From: Candidatus Rokuibacteriota bacterium
GTDB lineage: Bacteria > Methylomirabilota > Methylomirabilia > Rokubacteriales > JACPHL01
Assembly (NCBI GenBank): GCA_016188625.1
Contig: JACPHL010000002.1
Coordinates: forward strand, 1 to 10,253
Direction: 5' to 3'
Length of the DNA stretch: 10,253 nucleotides
Of the stretch, positions 1,384-10,253 are shown in pieces. Numbering within the stretch: position 1 is the stretch's first letter; each line of letters opens with the position of its first letter. Under the pieces are notes generated by a model. That model was not told where the DNA came from. It saw nothing but the letters and a program-made list of their open reading frames with translations, and ran no database searches. The position numbers and the translations under genes are program-made.

Positions 1384-1926
1384 TCATGCCGCCTCCCGTG
1401 CGTGGGGCGCGTAGTCGTAGCCGGTCGCAAATGCCCTGAGGTTGAGCTCCAGGAGGCGCGGGGCGAGCGTGGACCGCAGGGCCGCCTCGACGGCCTCCCG
1501 GCGCACCAGCCCGCTCACCGCGGTGAAGAAGCCCAGCATCACCACGTTGGCCACGATCTTCTTCCCGAGCCCTTCGGCCAGCCGCGTGGCCGGGATCGCG
1601 TGAAACGCCCCCTCCCCCGGGTCGGGCCTCACGAGGTCCTGGTCGAGGACCAGGAGGCCGCCTTCCACGAGGCCCGGACGGTGGCGTTCGTAGGCCTCCT
1701 GGAACATGACGACCAGGCAGTCGGGGCGCGTCACCAGCGGGTAATCCACCGGCGCGTCGGCGATGACCACGTCCGCGTTGGAGGCTCCGCCCCGAGCCTC
1801 GGGCCCATAGGACTGGGTGAAGACCGCCTCCTTGCCGTCGTGGAGGGCCGCGGCCTTCCCCAGGAGCAGGCCGATCAGGATGATCCCCTGCCCTCCGTAG
1901 CCGGCCAACCGGACTTCCCGGCGCAC
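1384..1926 (-). CDS. korC: 2-oxoacid:ferredoxin oxidoreductase, gamma subunit
   Basis: 180 aa, the usual size for a free-standing gamma subunit. The N-terminus has the family glycine motif GYGGQG (residues 9-14), followed by TQSYGPEARGGASNADVVI, which matches the pyruvate/ketoisovalerate oxidoreductase catalytic domain (POR, PF01558). The gamma subunit helps form the oligomer and its active site and carries no iron-sulfur cluster. The start is GTG at 1926. It is supported by a strong AGGAGGGG Shine-Dalgarno just upstream and by lying 3 bp after the korB stop, and the conserved RLAGYGGQG block begins within a few residues. It is the last of four tightly spaced kor genes. The repeat and hdrA follow downstream. 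Confidence 0.93.
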   Translation of the reverse strand: MRREVRLAGYGGQGIILIGLLLGKAAALHDGKEAVFTQSYGPEARGGASNADVVIADAPVDYPLVTRPDCLVVMFQEAYERHRPGLVEGGLLVLDQDLVRPDPGEGAFHAIPATRLAEGLGKKIVANVVMLGFFTAVSGLVRREAVEAALRSTLAPRLLELNLRAFATGYDYAPHAREAA

Positions 1927-1929
1927 GGC

Positions 1930-2808
1930 CTACCCCTCCTGTTCCTTCCGGGCCAGCGGTGCGTGGTCCTCGACCTCGGGGGCGGGCCGACGCATGGCCA
2001 GCGGATCGAAGACCGGTCGCTCGATGTCCACGAAGTTGCCCAGGACGATCGGATGGTCCCTCTGCCGGAGGTCGATGTCCAGGGCGGCCAGGGGCGCCCC
2101 GTGGTCCACCACGCACCGCTCCCGGTAGAGCATCATCTCCTCCATGGCGTCGCCGATCTCGTTGGGGCGGCCGAAGCCCACGGGGCACGGGGCCAGGACT
2201 TCGATGAAGGTCAGCCCCCGCTTCTTCATGGCGCGGAGGATCGCCTGCTTGAGCTGGCGCAGGTGGAGCGAGGTCCACCGGGCCACGAAGACCGCCCCCG
2301 TGGCGGCCGCGAGATACGGGAGGCTGAAGGGCTGCTCGTAGTTCCCGTAGGGGGCGGTGGTGGCGCGGGCGCCCATGGGGGTGGTCGGGCCCACCTGACC
2401 GCCGGTCATCCCGTAGTTGAAGTTGTTGATGCAGATGACGTTGAGATCCACGTTGCGCCGGGCCGCGTGGATGAAGTGGTTGCCGCCGATGGCGAACAGA
2501 TCGCCGTCGCCGCTGAAGACCGCGACCTCCAGCTGGGGCCTGACCAGGGCGACGGCCATGGCGAAGGGGATGGCCCGGCCGTGGGTGGTGTGGTAGGAGT
2601 CGATGTTCAGATAGCCCGGCACCCGCCCCGAGCAGCCGATCCCGGACACGCAGACGTGGCGGTCGAGCGGGATCCCCGACTCCACCAGGGCCTGGGCGTA
2701 GGCGTGCATGGCCGGACCGATCCCGCACCCGGGGCACCAGATATGCGGCAGGCGATCCGCCCTGAAGAGGGGATCGCTCGGGTGCCGCTCTGCCATGAGC
2801 GTGGTCAT
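1930..2808 (-). CDS. korB: 2-oxoacid:ferredoxin oxidoreductase, beta subunit (TPP-binding), probably 2-oxoglutarate-specific
   Basis: 292 aa, normal for KorB. It binds thiamine pyrophosphate and the 4Fe-4S cluster next to it, and performs oxidative decarboxylation of a 2-oxoacid to its acyl-CoA. The TPP motif is SGDGDLFAIGGNH (99-111) ending in the INNFNYGMTGGQ block (127-138). The cluster ligands are visible as WCPGCG (C25, C28), GIGCSGR (C59) and LAPCPVGFGR (C208). The HTTHGRAIPFAMA segment (73-85) is typical of the family. ATG at 2808 overlaps the korA stop by 4 bp (ATGA), so translation is probably coupled; a GGGAGG lies about 10 nt upstream. The same frame is open further upstream, but that part only reads antisense or shifted over korA. 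Resemblance to KorB favours 2-oxoglutarate, but other 2-oxoacids cannot be excluded from sequence alone. Confidence 0.94.
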   Translation of the reverse strand: MTTLMAERHPSDPLFRADRLPHIWCPGCGIGPAMHAYAQALVESGIPLDRHVCVSGIGCSGRVPGYLNIDSYHTTHGRAIPFAMAVALVRPQLEVAVFSGDGDLFAIGGNHFIHAARRNVDLNVICINNFNYGMTGGQVGPTTPMGARATTAPYGNYEQPFSLPYLAAATGAVFVARWTSLHLRQLKQAILRAMKKRGLTFIEVLAPCPVGFGRPNEIGDAMEEMMLYRERCVVDHGAPLAALDIDLRQRDHPIVLGNFVDIERPVFDPLAMRRPAPEVEDHAPLARKEQEG

Positions 2809-3962
2809 CGCGTCGCCGCCTCCCGGATCGTATCGAGGATCGGCTCGGGAGGAAGCATCGCCCCGCCCGCGTGGTTCACCCCGAGGACCGGGCGATGCGT
2901 GAACCGCTCCACCTCGCGGGCGATCTGCCCCATGTTCAGCTCGGGGACGACGACGGCGCCGACCCGCTCGGCGAGCCTTCGCACGCGCTCCCCGGGAAAG
3001 GGCCAGAGGGTGATGGGACGGAGGAGCCCGGCCCGGATCCCCTCCTCGCGGGCCACGGCCACGGCGCGGCGGGCGGAGCGCGCCGTGGAGCCGTAGGCGA
3101 TGACCACCACCCGGGCATCCTCGAGCTGCGACTCCTCGTACTCCTCGATCCGCCAGGCGTGCCGCCTGACCTTCTCCACCAGACGCCGGACGAGCCGATC
3201 GTGGGCCTCCGCGTTGGTGGCCGGATAGCCCCGCTCGTCGTGCGTGAGCCCGGTGAAGTGGACCCGGTAGCCTTCCCCGGCATGGGCCATGGGAGGAACC
3301 AGGTCGTCGTCGGCCTGGAAGGGGAGGAACCCGTCCCCTCCCGGGGCCGTCCGGGGACGCTTGCGCTCGACCTTCGGGATGGCGTCCGGAGGGGGGATGA
3401 CCACCCGCTCGGTCATGTGCCCGACCACCTCGTCGGCCAGGACGAACACGGGAATCCGGTACTGGTCCGCGGTGTTGAACGCGCGGACGGTGAGGTCGAA
3501 ACACTCCTGAGGCGAGGCGGGCGCGTAGGCCACGATCTCGTAGTCGCCGTGGGAACCCCACCGGGCCTGCATGACATCGGCCTGCGCCACCAGGGTCGGA
3601 AGGCCGGTGGAGGGGGCGCCTCGCTGGACGTTCACGACCACGCAAGGCACCTCCATCATCGCGGCCAGGCCGACGTTCTCCATCATGAGGGAAAAACCCG
3701 GGCCCGAGGTGGCGGTCATGGCCCGCGCCCCCGCCACCGAAGCGCCGACGATGGCGGCCATCGAGGCCAGCTCGTCCTCCATCTGGACGAAGATCCCGCC
3801 CACCTCGGGGAGGCGGTGGGCGAGGCGCTCGGCGATCTCCGTGGACGGCGTGATCGGGTAGCCGGCGAAGAAGCGGCAGCCGGCGGCCAGGGCCCCTTCG
3901 GCGCAGGCGTGGTCGCCCAGGAGGAAGTGCTGCCCCTCGAGGACCGCCGGCCCATCCTTCAC
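2805..3962 (-). CDS. korA: 2-oxoacid:ferredoxin oxidoreductase, alpha subunit, probably 2-oxoglutarate-specific
   Basis: 385 aa, the length of a stand-alone alpha subunit without a gamma fusion. The pyrimidine-binding domain holds the hallmark GYPITPSTEIAE (about 34-45), QMEDELASMAAIVGASVAG (60-78) and MTATSGPGFSLMMEN (82-96). Then come VNVQRGAPSTGLPT and ADVMQARWGSHGD, close to characterised 2-oxoglutarate and related KorA proteins. A transketolase C-terminal-like domain follows at about 280-385 (VVIAYGSTARSARRAV, LLRPITLWPFP, PELNMGQIAREVE). With KorB it forms the TPP active site. The start is GTG at 3962, overlapping the korD stop by 4 bp (GTGA). No good Shine-Dalgarno is present, which fits coupling to korD translation. 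Confidence 0.94.
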   Translation of the reverse strand: MKDGPAVLEGQHFLLGDHACAEGALAAGCRFFAGYPITPSTEIAERLAHRLPEVGGIFVQMEDELASMAAIVGASVAGARAMTATSGPGFSLMMENVGLAAMMEVPCVVVNVQRGAPSTGLPTLVAQADVMQARWGSHGDYEIVAYAPASPQECFDLTVRAFNTADQYRIPVFVLADEVVGHMTERVVIPPPDAIPKVERKRPRTAPGGDGFLPFQADDDLVPPMAHAGEGYRVHFTGLTHDERGYPATNAEAHDRLVRRLVEKVRRHAWRIEEYEESQLEDARVVVIAYGSTARSARRAVAVAREEGIRAGLLRPITLWPFPGERVRRLAERVGAVVVPELNMGQIAREVERFTHRPVLGVNHAGGAMLPPEPILDTIREAATR

Positions 3963-4249
3963 GGCGTGACCCCGGCGCCGGCGACCTCCACCGTGTAGAT
4001 GGCGTACTCAGGGCAGACCAGGGAGCAGAACTCGCAGTGGACGCAGGCGACGTCCTTGCCGGTGGCGACCACGGGGTAACGGTAACCCCTGACGTTGGTC
4101 TCGGTTGAAAGGGTCAGGACGTCCCTGGGGCAGAAATCAATGCAAAAACGGCACTCTTTGCAGCGGGAGGGGATGACATACACCTGCCCCTGCGGCAGGA
4201 CCGCCGCCTTCCAGTCCAGTGGGACCCGGGTGCTCTGGCCCCGCAGCAC
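3959..4249 (-). CDS. korD: Kor-associated 2x[4Fe-4S] ferredoxin subunit (delta)
   Basis: 96 aa with two bacterial-type 4Fe-4S motifs: C30-x2-C33-x2-C36-x3-C40-P and C69-x2-C72-x2-C75-x3-C79-P. This is the small delta subunit that carries electrons from the KorB cluster to an external ferredoxin or partner protein. The about 25 residues before the first motif (VPLDWKAAVLPQGQVYVIPS) resemble those of other KorD proteins. It is the first gene of the kor operon. The start is GTG at 4249. A weak GAGG lies about 10 nt upstream and no ATG is available upstream in this frame, so the exact start is less certain than the product. Confidence 0.9.
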   Translation of the reverse strand: MLRGQSTRVPLDWKAAVLPQGQVYVIPSRCKECRFCIDFCPRDVLTLSTETNVRGYRYPVVATGKDVACVHCEFCSLVCPEYAIYTVEVAGAGVTP

Positions 4250-4522: not shown

Positions 4523-5497
4523 ATGACACCGCGACATCGCATCGTCGCACTCGTCCTGCTCCTCGGCCTCGCCGCCCTGGTAGGGGCCCCGACGCCCATC
4601 GAGGCCCAGGCCAAGCGGCTCGTCACCATCGCCTCCGGCTGGGTGGTGGGGGTCTACTACCCGCTGGCCGGGGCGATGTCCCGGATCGTCTACAAGGCCA
4701 AGGACCTCAACCTCCGGGCCACGGTCGAGTCCTCGGGGGCCTCGGTGGCCAACGCCAAGCTGATCGGCGGCGGGGAGGCCGAGTTCGCCCTGCTCCAGAA
4801 CGACATCGCCTACTATGCCCACAACGGGACCGAGATGTTCAAGGACCAGGCGGTGAAGAACATGGGCGGGGTCTTCACCATCTACCCCGAGCTGATCCAC
4901 GTGGTGGCGACCACGACCTCCGGGATCAGGTCGCCGAAGGACCTCAAGGGGAAGACCGTCGCCATCGGGCCCCTGGGGAGCGGCACCGAGGCCAACGCGG
5001 TCCAGATCCTCGAGGCCTACGGCCTCAAACTCGGGGACCTCAGGAAGGCCGAGCGGATCGGCGCGGGCGAGGCCGCCGACGCCCTGAAGGACGGCCGGGT
5101 GGACGCGGCCTTCTTCACGGTCGGCCTGGGCGGCGCCGTCATCATCGATACCTTCGTGACCGGCAAGGTCGCGCTGGTGCCGGTGACCGGGACGGAGGCC
5201 GAGGCCCTGAAGAAGCGCTACCCCTTCTACACGACCACCCCGGTGCCCGCGAACACCTACAAGGGGCAGGAGCAGGAGGTGAGCACGGTCGCGGTGATGG
5301 CGATGATGGTGGCCCGGAGCGATCTCCCCGAGGACCTGGTCTACCGCTTCACAAAGGCCATCTTCGATGACCTGGCCCAGTTCCACGCCGCCCACGCCGC
5401 GGCCAAGCACCTGACCCTCAAGACGGCGCTGGACGGGATGCCGATCCCGCTCCACCCCGGGGCCGAGAAGTTCTACAAGGAGAAGGGCGTCAAGTAA
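4523..5497 (+). CDS. TRAP transporter solute receptor, TAXI family (periplasmic substrate-binding protein)
   Basis: 324 aa, the usual TAXI length. A Sec signal peptide is clear: RHR at 4-6, a hydrophobic core at about 7-23 and a likely cleavage after A28-Q29-A30; there is no lipobox cysteine, so the protein should be free in the periplasm. The family blocks are GVYYPLAGAMSRI (43-55), ESSGASVANAKLIGGGEAEFAL (69-90, including the glycine-rich GGGEAEFAL) and LQNDIAYYA. Then come YPELIHVV, SPKDLKGKTVAIGPLGSGTE and VGLGGAVIIDTF. TAXI receptors bind small organic acids and deliver them to a fused TRAP permease driven by a sodium or proton gradient. The ligand cannot be read from the sequence. The matching permease is encoded on the opposite strand at 6412-8490, with a DUF1850 gene just downstream. 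Confidence 0.94.
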   Translation: MTPRHRIVALVLLLGLAALVGAPTPIEAQAKRLVTIASGWVVGVYYPLAGAMSRIVYKAKDLNLRATVESSGASVANAKLIGGGEAEFALLQNDIAYYAHNGTEMFKDQAVKNMGGVFTIYPELIHVVATTTSGIRSPKDLKGKTVAIGPLGSGTEANAVQILEAYGLKLGDLRKAERIGAGEAADALKDGRVDAAFFTVGLGGAVIIDTFVTGKVALVPVTGTEAEALKKRYPFYTTTPVPANTYKGQEQEVSTVAVMAMMVARSDLPEDLVYRFTKAIFDDLAQFHAAHAAAKHLTLKTALDGMPIPLHPGAEKFYKEKGVK

Positions 5498-5504
5498 AGA
5501 CCCT

Positions 5505-5573
5505 GGGAGGGGGGCTCCGCCCCCCTTCCCAACCTCCCCCCCAGAGGTTGCGCCGGCAAAGCCGGCGCTCGAA
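5505..5573. repeat. Two-hairpin intergenic element, copy B
   Basis: It begins 7 bp after the TAXI stop. Hairpin 1 is a 10-bp stem with one G-T pair, GGGAGGGGGG (5505-5514) with CCCCCTTCCC (5521-5530), and a 6-nt loop CTCCGC. The linker AACCTCCCCCCAGAGG follows. Hairpin 2 is GCGCCGGC (5550-5557) with GCCGGCGC (5561-5568), loop AAA, then TCGAA (5569-5573). Compared with copy A, stem position 5 changes from G-C to C-G with pairing kept. It could act as a 3' stabiliser or weak terminator for the TAXI message, but no T-run is present. Confidence 0.75.
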
Positions 5574-5631
5574 GTGGACCCTCCATCCGCCAGCCGAGGG
5601 TCGAGGGCGCGGAGGCACCTCTGACGTGGGA

Positions 5632-5648
5632 GGGGGGCTAACGCCCCC
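5632..5648. repeat. Short GC hairpin resembling hairpin 1 of the intergenic element
   Basis: GGGGGC (5633-5638) pairs with GCCCCC (5643-5648) around loop TAAC. It is preceded by GGGAGG, as in copy B, but no second hairpin follows. It lies 16 bp before the DUF1850 start. Bases 5574-5631 hold nothing recognisable. Confidence 0.45.
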
Positions 5649-5664
5649 AATCGAGTACTCCGCC

Positions 5665-6189
5665 ATGCGCGAGCGGGGAAGTGCCAGCCAGAGCGGGCTG
5701 CGGGGTCTGCCCCTTGCGCTCCTCCTGGGGGGCGCCGCCCTCGTCCTGCTCGGGTGGTTCCTCCTCCGGCCGCTCCCGATTCTAACCGTCACCGAGGCCG
5801 GGTCAGGGGCGCTCCTCCGCCTCCCGGTTCGCGCGGATGAGACCTTCACCCTGAGCTACATCCACTCGGTCGAGCGGGTGCCGGTCACGGGCACCTTCGC
5901 GATCGGCCGGGACGGGAGGCTCGAGGTCCTCGAGACCGCCTTCGGCTCCTTCGGCCCCGGCCTCCCGGAGCCCCGGCCGGGAGAAGACTACGAGCTCCGC
6001 GGCGGGATGATCCACTACCGCCCCGGCGGCCAGGCCCTGGAGGTCCTCTCCTTCTTCGTCCACCCCTTCACGGACCACCGGTTGACCGTCGGGGGACGCA
6101 CCCTGGAGCTCTCCCGCCTCCTCCCGCCGGGGAGCCGGGTCGTCGTCCGGGTCGACCCGGTGCCCGCCTACCGGACGCTGTTCCCCTGA
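5665..6189 (+). CDS. DUF1850 family protein, TRAP-TAXI accessory
   Basis: 174 aa. One N-terminal membrane segment (about 15-34, LPLALLLGGAALVLLGWFLL) would anchor a small extracytoplasmic domain. The DUF1850 core (PF08905) is recognisable by FTLSYIHSVERVPVTGTF (about 66-83), the acidic and aromatic LEVLETAFGSFGPGLPE, and FFVHPFTDHRLTVGG. The family has no established biochemical role, but its genes usually lie between a TAXI receptor and a fused TRAP permease, so a role in that transporter is inferred from context. ATG at 5665 was chosen. An earlier TTG at 5548 would force translation through both repeat hairpins and adds nonconserved sequence. No strong Shine-Dalgarno precedes the ATG, so the start is moderately certain. 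Confidence 0.85.
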   Translation: MRERGSASQSGLRGLPLALLLGGAALVLLGWFLLRPLPILTVTEAGSGALLRLPVRADETFTLSYIHSVERVPVTGTFAIGRDGRLEVLETAFGSFGPGLPEPRPGEDYELRGGMIHYRPGGQALEVLSFFVHPFTDHRLTVGGRTLELSRLLPPGSRVVVRVDPVPAYRTLFP

Positions 6190-6210
6190 GCCTCGCTTAG
6201 CCGGGATTAT

Positions 6211-6402
6211 TTCGTGAACGCCGCCAGCGGACGTCGGACGGGTGGCGCGCCGGGCGGGGCGCCCCACGCGGCGAGCCGGGGGACCCCACACCGGGCGGGG
6301 GTGGCGAGCCGAGTGGGGCTGCCCGGCGCGACAGGACCCGTCCGCCTCGCGGGAAGCCGTTCATGAAAGGACCCGTCCGCCTCGCGGGAAGCCGTTCATG
6401 AA
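6211..6402. repeat. Long imperfect palindrome between convergent genes
   Basis: Nested complementary blocks, outside to inside: 6211-6220 with 6358-6367 (9 of 10); 6235-6243 (CGGACGGGT) with 6336-6344 (perfect 9); 6246-6255 (CGCGCCGGGC) with 6321-6330 (perfect 10); 6261-6267 (GCCCCAC) with 6313-6319 (perfect 7); 6269-6272 with 6308-6311. The right arm is followed by a second exact 35-bp copy of its outer part (6368-6402). The span fills most of the 222-bp gap between the DUF1850 stop and the TRAP permease stop. It could be a bidirectional terminator, a MITE-like element or a structured RNA. No transposase motif or T-run is seen. Confidence 0.6.
6333..6402. repeat. Exact tandem duplication, 2 x 35 bp
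   Basis: Bases 6333-6367 and 6368-6402 are identical over all 35 positions and directly adjacent. Each unit starts AGGACCCGTCCGCC and ends with the 8-bp palindrome TTCATGAA. The period is not a multiple of three and both flanking genes end before it, so it is not coding. It ends 9 bp beyond the TRAP permease stop codon. Confidence 0.95.
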
Positions 6403-6411
6403 CAATCGCGG

Positions 6412-8490
6412 TCAGATCCAGGGCACGGCCTGACCCCGGACCCGGTGGCGCTGGAGGCTGTAGACGAGCGCCATCACCCCCAGGCCCGCCATGTCGGTGT
6501 AGAGGCCGGGCTTGACCAGGGCCAGGGCGGCCGCGAAGAGGAGGACGCGCTCGGGGAGGCGCGCCTCGGTGATGAGGAAGCCCTGCATCGCGGCCGCCAG
6601 CCCATACATCCCCACGGTGGCGGTCACGAAGATCCAGGCCGCCTCCCAGGGCGTGGTCTCGATGAGAAGCATCTGGGGGGCGGTGATGAACATGTACGGC
6701 AGCAGGAAGGTGCGCATGTCGAGCTTGAAGGCCTGGATCCCGGCCCTCAGCGGGTCGCAGCGCGCGATCCCCGCCGCGGCGTAAGCCGCCAGCCCGACCG
6801 GGGGGGTGTCGTCGGCCAGGATGCCGAAATAGAAGACGAAGAGGTGGGCGGCGATGAGGGGGATCGTGGGCGCCATCAGCGAGATGGCCGGGGCGGTCAG
6901 GGTGGCCATGATGATGTAGGTGGCGGTGGTGGGGACCCCCATCCCGAGCACGAGGCTGGCGATCATGGTCAGGAAGAGGGCCGTGAAGAGGTCCGCCTGG
7001 GGGAAGAGGACGAGGAGACCCGCGGGGAGCGAGCCGGCCAGCTCGACGACGATGTTGGAGAGGTTGAGGCCGATCCCGGTCAGGGTCACGACCCCCACGA
7101 TGATCCCCGCCGAGGCGGTGGTCGCCGCGACCCCGGCCATGGTGCGGGCCCCCATGTAGAGCCCGCGCAGCAGCCGGCCCCCGATCGCCCACCCCGAGAC
7201 CTCCTCGCCCTTCACCCCAGAGAACTCGACTCCCCGGAGGTTCCGGAGGGTGCCGGCCACCACATAGAGGGCCGCGGCGGCGACGATGGCGTAGAAGGCC
7301 GCCGTAAGCGGGGTGTACTGGGCCCAGATCAGGGCCCAGAGGAGGACCCCGACGGGGATCAGGTAGTGGATCCCCGAGAGGAAGGTGGCCCAGAAGCGCG
7401 GCAGCTCCTCCCGGGGCAGGCCCCGGATCCCGTGCTTCAGGGCCAGGAGGTGGACGGCCCCGAGGAGCGCGAGCTGGTCGATCACCGCGGGGAGGACGGC
7501 GGCCTTGACGACCTCGAGGTAGGGGATCCGGAGCCACTCGGCCATCACGAAGGCGGCGGCCCCCATGATGGGGGGCATGAGCTGGCCGTTCCCGGAGGCG
7601 GCCGTCTCGATCCCCGCGGCGGTCTCGGGGGCGTAGCCGACGCGCTTCATCAGCGGGATGGTGAAGTTCCCGGTGGTCGCCACGTTGGCGATGGAGGAGC
7701 CCGAGATGGTCCCCATGAAGGCCGAGGCCACCACGGCCGCCTTGGCCGGGCCGCCCCGGGTGCCGCCGAAGAGGGAGAAGGCCAGCCGGATCAGGTACTC
7801 GCCGATCCCGGTCTGGTCCAGGATCGCCCCGAACAGGACGAAGGCGAAGACGAAGGTCGAGGAGACCCAGAGGGGGATCCCGAAGATCCCCTCGGTGGTG
7901 AGGTAGAGGTGATCGACCACGCGGCGGATGGTGTAGCCGCGGTGGGCGATGATCAGGGGGAGGAAGGGGCCGAGGAAGGCGTAGCCGATGAAGCAGGCGG
8001 TGATGAGCGGGAGGATCCAACCCACGGTCCGCCGGGTCGCCTCCAGGATGAACAGGATGCAGAGGACCCCCGTGACGATGTCCGTGGTCGTGGGGTCCCC
8101 GACCCGCCGGACGAGGGCCGCCTGGAACCAGTAGACGTAGAAGGCGGTCCAGGCCCCGAGGAGGGCCAGGCCGACGTCGTAGGCCGGCAGGCCCTGCCGC
8201 CCGATCCGGCGGGCGGCGGGGTAGAAGATGAAGCAGAGGGCCAGGCCGAAGGCGAGGTGGACCGCCCGCTGCTCGACCCCGGGGAGCGTCCCGAAGGCGG
8301 CGGTCCAGAGCTGGAAGCCGGACCAGGCCACCGCCACGGCGCCGGTCGCGTAGAGGAGCGGCCCGCTGAACGTGCGGGCCCCGAACTCCGCCTCCCGGAC
8401 GAGGCGCTCGGCCTCGGCCGCGCCCTCCTCCTCCGGTGCCCCCTCGGCCCTGGCGTCGGAGGGCACTACTCCACCGGAAGAGTCCGCCAT
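6412..8490 (-). CDS. TRAP transporter permease, fused 4TM/12TM (DctQM) type, TAXI-associated
   Basis: 692 aa, very hydrophobic. A charged cytoplasmic N-terminus (1-40) is followed by four DctQ-like membrane segments (about 43-65, 74-92, 104-126, 138-150). A DctM domain (PF06808) then fills most of the rest. Diagnostic blocks are GTISGSSIANVATTGNFTIP (260-279), SGNGQLMPPIMGAAAFVMAE (299-318), the pseudo-repeat LGMGVPTTATYIIM (515-528) and GILADDTPPVGLAAYAAAGI (556-575). It is the inner-membrane secondary transporter that takes substrate from a TAXI receptor. The ATG at 8490 lacks a clear Shine-Dalgarno. It lies 40 bp after the aldehyde dehydrogenase stop, so the two are probably one transcript. 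It faces the TAXI and DUF1850 genes, which is unusual because all three are normally co-oriented. Confidence 0.94.
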   Translation of the reverse strand: MADSSGGVVPSDARAEGAPEEEGAAEAERLVREAEFGARTFSGPLLYATGAVAVAWSGFQLWTAAFGTLPGVEQRAVHLAFGLALCFIFYPAARRIGRQGLPAYDVGLALLGAWTAFYVYWFQAALVRRVGDPTTTDIVTGVLCILFILEATRRTVGWILPLITACFIGYAFLGPFLPLIIAHRGYTIRRVVDHLYLTTEGIFGIPLWVSSTFVFAFVLFGAILDQTGIGEYLIRLAFSLFGGTRGGPAKAAVVASAFMGTISGSSIANVATTGNFTIPLMKRVGYAPETAAGIETAASGNGQLMPPIMGAAAFVMAEWLRIPYLEVVKAAVLPAVIDQLALLGAVHLLALKHGIRGLPREELPRFWATFLSGIHYLIPVGVLLWALIWAQYTPLTAAFYAIVAAAALYVVAGTLRNLRGVEFSGVKGEEVSGWAIGGRLLRGLYMGARTMAGVAATTASAGIIVGVVTLTGIGLNLSNIVVELAGSLPAGLLVLFPQADLFTALFLTMIASLVLGMGVPTTATYIIMATLTAPAISLMAPTIPLIAAHLFVFYFGILADDTPPVGLAAYAAAGIARCDPLRAGIQAFKLDMRTFLLPYMFITAPQMLLIETTPWEAAWIFVTATVGMYGLAAAMQGFLITEARLPERVLLFAAALALVKPGLYTDMAGLGVMALVYSLQRHRVRGQAVPWI

Positions 8491-8530: not shown

Positions 8531-10015
8531 TCACACGTCGATCTGGGCCTTCTGGAGCCTGCCCGAGTAGTCGATGTAGACCGTCTTCCACTCCGTCATG
8601 ATGTCCAGGACCGTCCACCCCCCCTCGCGGTGGCCGTTGCCCGTCTGGCGCACGCCGCCGAAGGGGAACTGGATCTCCGCCCCGATGGTGGACGCGTTGA
8701 CGTAGGTGACCCCCGTGGCGATGTCCTGGATGGCCCGGAACGCGCGGTCGATGTCCCGGGTGTAGATCGCCGAGGAGAGGCCGTAGTTGGTGTTGTTGCA
8801 GATCTCGACGGCCTCCTCCAGGCTCCGCGCCCGGAGGACCGAGACCGAGGGGCCGAAGATCTCCTCCCGGGCGATCCGCATCCCCGGGTCCACCTCGCCG
8901 AAGATCGTGGGCCTGTAGAAGAACCCCCGCCGGAGCTCCCCCTCGGTGGCGATCTCGCCGCCGAGGAGCACCCGGGCGCCCTCCTTCCGGCCGATCTCGG
9001 TGTACTCGTGGATCCGCCGGAGCTGGGTCTCGTTGATGACCGGCCCCACGTCGGTCGTCTCCTCGAGCCCCGAGCCGAGGCGCAGCCCCTTGGCCCGGTC
9101 CACGAAGGCCTGGGTGAACCCCTTCAGCACCGCGTCGTGGACGATCACCCGGCTCGCCGCGGTGCAGCGCTGTCCCGAGGTCCCGAACCCTCCCCAGATC
9201 GCCCCCTCCACGGCCAGGTCGAGGGCGGCGTCGTCCATGACCAGGATGGCGTTCTTGCCCCCCATCTCCAGCGAGACCTTCTTGTACGTCTCCGCCGAGA
9301 CCCTAGCGATCTCGCGCCCCGTCTCGCTGGAGCCCGTGAAGGAGACCAGATTCACGCCGGGGTGCCGGACGAGGGCGGCCCCGGCCTCCTCGCCGTAGCC
9401 GTGGACGAGGTTGACGACCCCGGGCGGGAGGCCGGCCTCGATCAGGATCTCGACGAAGGCATGGGCCATCAGCGGGGTGTCCTCGGCCGGCTTGAAGACG
9501 ACGGTGTTGCCGCAGACGATCGCGGGGAGGAGCTTCCAGGTGGGGATGGCCAGCGGGAAGTTCCACGGGGTGATCGCCGCCACGACCCCGACCGGGACCC
9601 GCATGGCGACCCCGAACTTCGAGGGGAGCTCGCAGGGGACGTGGTGGCCGAAGAGCCGCCGCCCCTCGCCGGCCATGTAGTAGGCGGTGTCGATCCCCTC
9701 CTGGACGTCGCCCCGGGCCTCCTTGAGGACCTTCCCCATCTCCCGGACCATGAGGCGGGCCAGCTCCTCCTTCCGCTTGAGGAGCAGCTCGCCCGCCCGG
9801 AAGACGATCTCGGCCCGCCGGGGCGCCGGGTAGAGCCGCCAGCTCTTGAAGGCCTCCCGGGCGGCCTCGACCGCCCGATCCACGTCCGCCGCGTCCGACC
9901 GCGGGAAGCGCCCGAGGAGATCTTCCTTGTTGGCTGGGTTGAGGTCCTCGAAGGTCCGGCCCGAGGCCGCCTCCACCCATTCGCCGCCGATGTAGTTCCG
10001 ATACGTGGTCGTCAT
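8531..10015 (-). CDS. NAD(P)-dependent aldehyde dehydrogenase (ALDH superfamily), substrate unknown
   Basis: 494 aa, full length for the superfamily, probably cytoplasmic. All catalytic elements are present: TPWNFP with oxyanion N152, FKPAEDTP with cofactor-binding K175, the Rossmann FTGSSETG (226-233), LEMGGKNA with general base E250, and [12 protein letters not shown] with nucleophile C284. The C-terminal [10 protein letters not shown] and [17 protein letters not shown] are also intact. It oxidises an aldehyde to the acid. The TGNGHRE ending recalls amino-acid or sugar-acid semialdehyde dehydrogenases, such as those making 2-oxoglutarate, but the substrate cannot be fixed. ATG at 10015 was chosen over TTG at 10030, because GGGGAGGG just after that TTG is a well-placed Shine-Dalgarno for the ATG. 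The gene probably leads an operon with the TRAP permease. Confidence 0.94.
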
Positions 10016-10021
10016 CGCGTC

Positions 10022-10026
10022 CCTCC
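10022..10026 (-). promoter_or_regulatory. Shine-Dalgarno that decides the aldehyde dehydrogenase start
   Basis: The minus strand reads GGAGG within GGGGAGGG, 6 nt before ATG 10015. The longer reading from TTG 10030 would place this site inside the coding region, so the shorter protein is preferred. Confidence 0.7.
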
Positions 10027-10253
10027 CCAAAAGCCTATTCGGACAGGTTCTTCCGACTTTCGAGTGGGTGGAGGCCCCGCCGGGGGTTCCCGGCGAGCGA
10101 ATTCCGGGCGAGCCGTGTGGCCGTGCGCAGCGCAGGGCGGGGCGGAGCGCGCCGGCCCGAAAGCACGGACCCAGAGGGTCGGGTCTTGGCCCGCCCCCTT
10201 GGCCCGGGGGTGACAGCGAGCGGAGCGAGCGCCAGAGGGGCGGAGCCCCTATG
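10027..10253. other. Upstream region of the aldehyde dehydrogenase operon
   Basis: No gene was recognised in these 227 bp. They contain TCGGA-N8-TCCGA (10039-10056), a possible operator. There is a perfect 7-bp hairpin CGCCGGG/CCCGGCG (10078-10095) and a 5-bp hairpin GACCC/GGGTC (10168-10180). AGCGAGCG occurs twice (10215-10222 and 10224-10231). A hairpin AGGGGC/GCCCCT (10236-10250) has the same GGGGC-GGA-GCCCC core, inverted, as hairpin 1 of copy B. No convincing -35/-10 pair or sigma-54 box was found for the minus strand. The terminal ATG (10251-10253) cannot be judged as a start. Confidence 0.5.

Follow-up and report, generated by a model that had tools for sequence, protein, structure and literature searches.

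A window of 10,253 nucleotides from a Candidatus Rokuibacteriota genome (order Rokubacteriales) carries a long nested palindrome between two converging genes. The initial annotation, made from the sequence alone, placed it at 6211-6367 and named three candidates: a non-autonomous mobile element (the outer ends resembling a degraded terminal inverted repeat), a bidirectional terminator or decay barrier, and a structured RNA made from one strand. It also called for folding against dinucleotide-shuffled controls, a search of the genome for homologous copies and a search for empty sites in relatives. The genes of the window are ordinary (1384-4249 -, 4523-6189 +, 6412-8490 - and 8531-10030 -), their products being 2-oxoacid:ferredoxin oxidoreductase subunits, an NMT1-like (TAXI-type) binding protein, a DUF1850 protein, a TRAP permease (DctM) and an aldehyde dehydrogenase. 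The gap lies between the DUF1850 gene, which stops at 6189 on the plus strand, and the TRAP gene, which stops at 6412 on the minus strand.

Extent of the palindrome and its copies

The nested palindrome is present in the convergent gap, its outer ends are the same as those quoted in the initial annotation, and both strands fold better than their shuffled controls. For region 6205-6373, the plus strand folded at -103 kcal/mol and the minus strand at -101 kcal/mol, whereas 200 dinucleotide shuffles per strand averaged -87 and -82 kcal/mol (z = -3.6 and -4.5), and equally good folds were found in 1/200 and 0/200 shuffles, respectively. The expectation that the arrangement exceeds chance was settled by further copies in the same genome, because their occurrence rules out a chance origin of the palindrome. 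The original bounds were too short: position 6367 is the last base of the first of two identical 35-bp units, and since this right arm is tandemly duplicated in the window copy, the element extends from about 6201 to about 6411. The duplication looks private to the window copy, because the right arm is single in the other genomic copies listed in the alignment. The features of the locus are as follows.

6197..6200, no strand: putative left target copy TTAG (family consensus CTAR; duplication or end sequence)
6201..6411, no strand: whole MITE, 211 bp in the window (alignment of genomic copies)
6201..6219, plus strand: left terminal inverted repeat (TIR) CCGGGATTATTTCGTGAAC, with one T more than the family (copy alignment, TIR pattern matches, letters checked)
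6239..6340, plus strand: structured core CGGGTGGCGC...GCGACAGGACCCG, 102 bp (covariance-model match, covariation, wobble asymmetry)
6333..6367, no strand: right-arm duplication, first 35-bp unit
6368..6402, no strand: right-arm duplication, second 35-bp unit, identical to the first
6394..6411, minus strand: right TIR, GTTCATGAACAATCGCGG on the plus strand (copy alignment, TIR pattern matches)
6412..6415, no strand: putative right target copy TCAG, where the TRAP gene stop codon (6412-6414, TGA on the minus strand) coincides with the right junction of the element

The whole-genome similarity search recovered 13-15 copies of the element in this genome; among 22 matches, 14 (the window copy included) span most or all of the core, and the remaining ones are partial copies. 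Several copies lie at contig ends, as expected for repeats in an assembly. The complete copies outside the window are 154-176 bp long, end in CCGGGATTATTCATGAAC / GTTCATGAATAATCSCGG and are mostly flanked by CTAG/CTAG or CTAA/CTAA, and the TIR pattern gave 24 matches in the genome versus none for the reversed control. Note that the flanks of the copies agree mostly at 3-4 of the four bases and that shuffling of the right flanks gave nearly equal agreement (p = 0.20), the CTAG flanks being either a duplicated target or part of the ends. Identity among the copies was 97.5% in the core and 75-81% in the arms, the absence of the TIR from some left arms adding to the divergence of the latter. Several copies adjoin another dispersed repeat, about 75 bp long (like GCGGACCANCCATCCGCGNGCCGAGGGTCAGAGCGC), which recurs across the order (left flanks of L009, L013, L014, L020 and L021; also L308, L311, L158, L203 and L324); this cross-match has a tRNA-like look, but ARAGORN found no tRNA.

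Among the relatives compared, which are related to the window's genome at the level of the order, no exact empty site of the window copy was found. When the flanks of copies in two sister species were joined, relatives were found to have the same genes adjoining without the element, although their gaps have diverged too far for the exact junctions to be read.

IS1380-type ends of the element

In a relative of the same order (genome G034, contig C342, locus L084), a transposase gene of the IS1380 family (PF13701) lies between CTAGCCTGGATTATTCGTGAAC and TTTCGCGAATAATCCAGGCTAG, and the ends of this insertion sequence match those of the window element (CCGGGATTATTCATGAAC, flanked by CTAR), including the end CCTGGATTATTCGTGAAC and the CTAG flanks. 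The G034 transposase copy itself looks decayed, since the PF13701 match is split over two frames. The element has TIRs at both ends, contains no transposase gene within its 154-211 bp (below 500 bp) and occurs in multiple copies at unrelated sites. Given the ends shared with the G034 element, the window element is, by sequence, a MITE with IS1380-type ends, and the first of the initial proposals, a non-autonomous mobile element with degraded TIRs, was right in view of the copies, these ends and the CTAR-like flanks. Unlike members of the IS1380 family, it has no transposase gene inside, and none was found elsewhere in its own genome (84% complete). A search for larger autonomous versions yielded no convincing pair of ends farther apart. 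The element was probably moved in trans by a transposase of the IS1380 type.

Like the prokaryotic MITEs reviewed in PMC10969869 (e.g. QMITE2 of Coxiella), the element is short, gene-less and bounded by TIRs, with many intergenic copies and a stem-loop fold; stem-loop transcripts are described in that review. Unlike them, it has a very GC-rich core, in which internal loops are conserved and stems covary, and which recurs across phyla inside MITEs with other ends; a text search of the review for the word 'phyla' gave no match.

Conserved structure and spread of the core

In other genomes of the order, similarity to the element is often limited to its interior. In the core family, CGGGUGGCRC is followed by a variable stem, by more conserved internal loops and then by GYGACAGGACCCG, the base of the hairpin (CGGGU/ACCCG) being near invariant. 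The fold is conserved on the plus strand of the window, where covariance model R1 matches at 6235-6344 (37.4 bits, E = 3.6e-6). In an alignment of 56 sequences, 18 of the 23 pairs had changed on both sides, and the covariation score was 0.425, whereas shuffled partners gave 0.136 and slid partners no more than 0.082. The first five positions of stem 2, whose bases are free of the search pattern, were Watson-Crick paired in 73-86% of cases, against 31-52% with the partners shuffled among loci. The wobble pairs in the core were asymmetric: stem 2 contained 72 G-T and 20 A-C cells (shuffle expectation, 98 and 81), and the R/Y pair 17 and 0, respectively, whereas the outer stem had no asymmetry (15 G-T and 21 A-C). 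Because of this asymmetry, the substitution pattern indicates that selection acts on the core as a single folded strand of one polarity, the plus strand in the window; the outer stem behaves like a DNA palindrome in the same comparison. The initial proposal of a structured RNA from one strand is therefore partly supported, namely for the core, where the covariation and the unequal wobble counts indicate that one folded strand is under selection.

Some cores are of a long form (about 141-149 nt) that conserves the frame around an apical segment of about 50 nt, which is strongly copy-specific even within a genome, with recognisable subfamilies common to some copies (loci L111, L154, L157, L159, L161, L384, L386, L391 and L401-L438). 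In Candidatus Uhrbacteria (CPR), four loci (L163, L225, L241 and L249) have a copy-specific middle of about 40 nt in a near-identical frame. One gap which contains a short-form core in genome G056 contains a different long-form core in G028 (L367, G028:C39), either by repeated occupation or by fast turnover. Partial cores are nested or in tandem at L200, L222 and L239, which suggests that palindromes grow by template switching; the 35-bp duplication in the window is comparable. In G037, a sub-threshold match to the PyrR site (L110, 432-531 +; 39.4 bits, gathering score 54) adjoins a core copy.

For the window, Rfam 15 had no family at gathering score, and scans at permissive thresholds, run on the window segment and on related loci, found nothing relevant at the element. 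Searches with the conserved 11-mer and by topic found no published description, an absence that is not proof because subscription papers were largely outside their scope. The core hairpin family is absent from Rfam 15 and, within the reach of these searches, previously unlisted. An integron attC site was rejected, since it needs RYYYAAC / GTTRRRY boxes at the base of the hairpin, where the core has CGGGU/ACCCG. BOX and ERIC-type modular repeats are small structured repeats known only from few genera; the core family is likewise small and structured, with exchangeable middle parts, but it spans many phyla.

Within the order, the exact core pattern matched 16 of 60 genomes and had few matches in the control, and the covariance model found the core, in a patchy distribution, in 25 of 59, with up to 27 copies in one genome. 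A scan of GTDB genomes with the core pattern matched at least 118 contigs, and the matches listed include Acidobacteria, Nitrospirae, Aminicenantes, Omnitrophota, Melainabacteria, Gamma- and Deltaproteobacteria, Actinomycetota, Chloroflexi, Gemmatimonadetes, Krumholzibacteriota, Rokuibacteriota and several CPR lineages. Outside the order, the covariance model counted 104 copies in a gammaproteobacterium, 27 in Aminicenantes, 25 in Omnitrophota (one genome each), 17 in a Kerfeldbacterium and 9 in the 0.6-Mb genome of a Saccharibacterium; these counts come from 24 genomes picked for holding a match and do not represent prevalence. No core was found in viral, phage and plasmid collections including IMG/VR.

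Outer inverted repeats exceeded the 95% level of mismatched controls at 43 of 115 loci (6 expected). Several were plain MITE-like ends, not the same from one lineage to the next: Acidobacteria yielded GGTTTCATAACC and GTTGCAGAATT, and Gammaproteobacteria CCGGCCGGATTCA and a long AT-rich repeat. Other copies had only a locus-specific palindrome of about 8-18 bp. Judged from these ends, the MITEs that contain the core have unrelated ends in different phyla, and some cores lack recognisable ends.

Origin and role of the element and its core

We consider it likely that a MITE with ends of the IS1380 type entered the window at a CTAR-like site in the gap between convergent genes, and that it carries in its interior, as a passenger, a hairpin from a widespread family of structured repeats. 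An IS1380-family transposase would bind the ends and move the element in trans; the core would be retained since its plus strand acts as a folded single strand, most likely RNA, that aids the persistence or copying of the element; this role, not regulation of the neighbouring genes, would be the reason for its retention. Against this reading, no IS1380 transposase was found in the genome of the window or in most other core-rich genomes (present in 3 of the 18 examined), and the mobiliser outside the order may be of another kind.

The explanation which survives best beside this one overlaps with it and would sharpen its conditional half: the core may be a structured RNA with a function of its own, as a ribozyme or by binding a protein, which unrelated transposons carry because it is helpful, an alternative that includes an RNA useful to the host. 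The internal loops are conserved while the stems vary, selection acts on one strand and the core is repeatedly paired with different MITE ends; against these points, it has no relative in Rfam and no consistent gene association, the common neighbours of core copies being only ordinary or spurious families, and we judge this possibility to fall some way short of an even chance.

That the core itself is the mobile unit, a REP-like single-strand hairpin which a Y1 transposase copies and which enters palindromes, MITEs among them, seems unlikely. REP elements with RAYT (Y1) transposases are also hairpins dispersed in gene gaps, the outer ends of the core are unrelated or missing, the wobble asymmetry would suit a single-stranded DNA fold as well, and Y1 transposases were present in 10 of 14 core-rich genomes. 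However, cores flank Y1 genes no more than expected (2 of 39 loci), the Y1 gene is absent from the genome of the window and from several core-rich genomes, no constant cleavage motif was seen outside the hairpin, and the family is longer than REP elements and of other sequence, with no consistent or adjacent Y1 gene; a REP/RAYT identity was therefore rejected.

An ordinary bidirectional terminator or decay barrier, which the convergent gap and the very stable fold had brought to mind, is very improbable and found no support, since near-identical copies are dispersed and the family extends across phyla, no T-run lies beside the stem in the window or in the copies read, convergent gaps are only slightly over-represented (21/84 core elements versus 94/471 control gaps, counted with the element masked and with rough gene calls) and no strand bias of the 84 elements toward neighbouring genes was significant relative to control gaps.

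Returning to the MITE with a passenger hairpin, we tentatively suggest, at slightly under an even chance, that its core is a structured nucleic acid of a new class, most probably RNA, which transposons have in common across many bacterial phyla. Such a core would be a module with a function of its own, as a ribozyme, a protein-binding RNA or a transposition signal; unrelated MITEs would have acquired it repeatedly, and its apical domains would be exchangeable or copy-specific. The current RNA family library lacks this hairpin, which ranges from Rokubacteria to CPR, keeps its internal loops and shows strong compensatory change, and the covariance model renders the readings of the core testable. 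As a functional RNA, the core would rank among the more abundant of the structured elements that lack an assignment in uncultured bacteria; as a transposition signal, it would bring to light a mechanism common to MITEs with unrelated ends.
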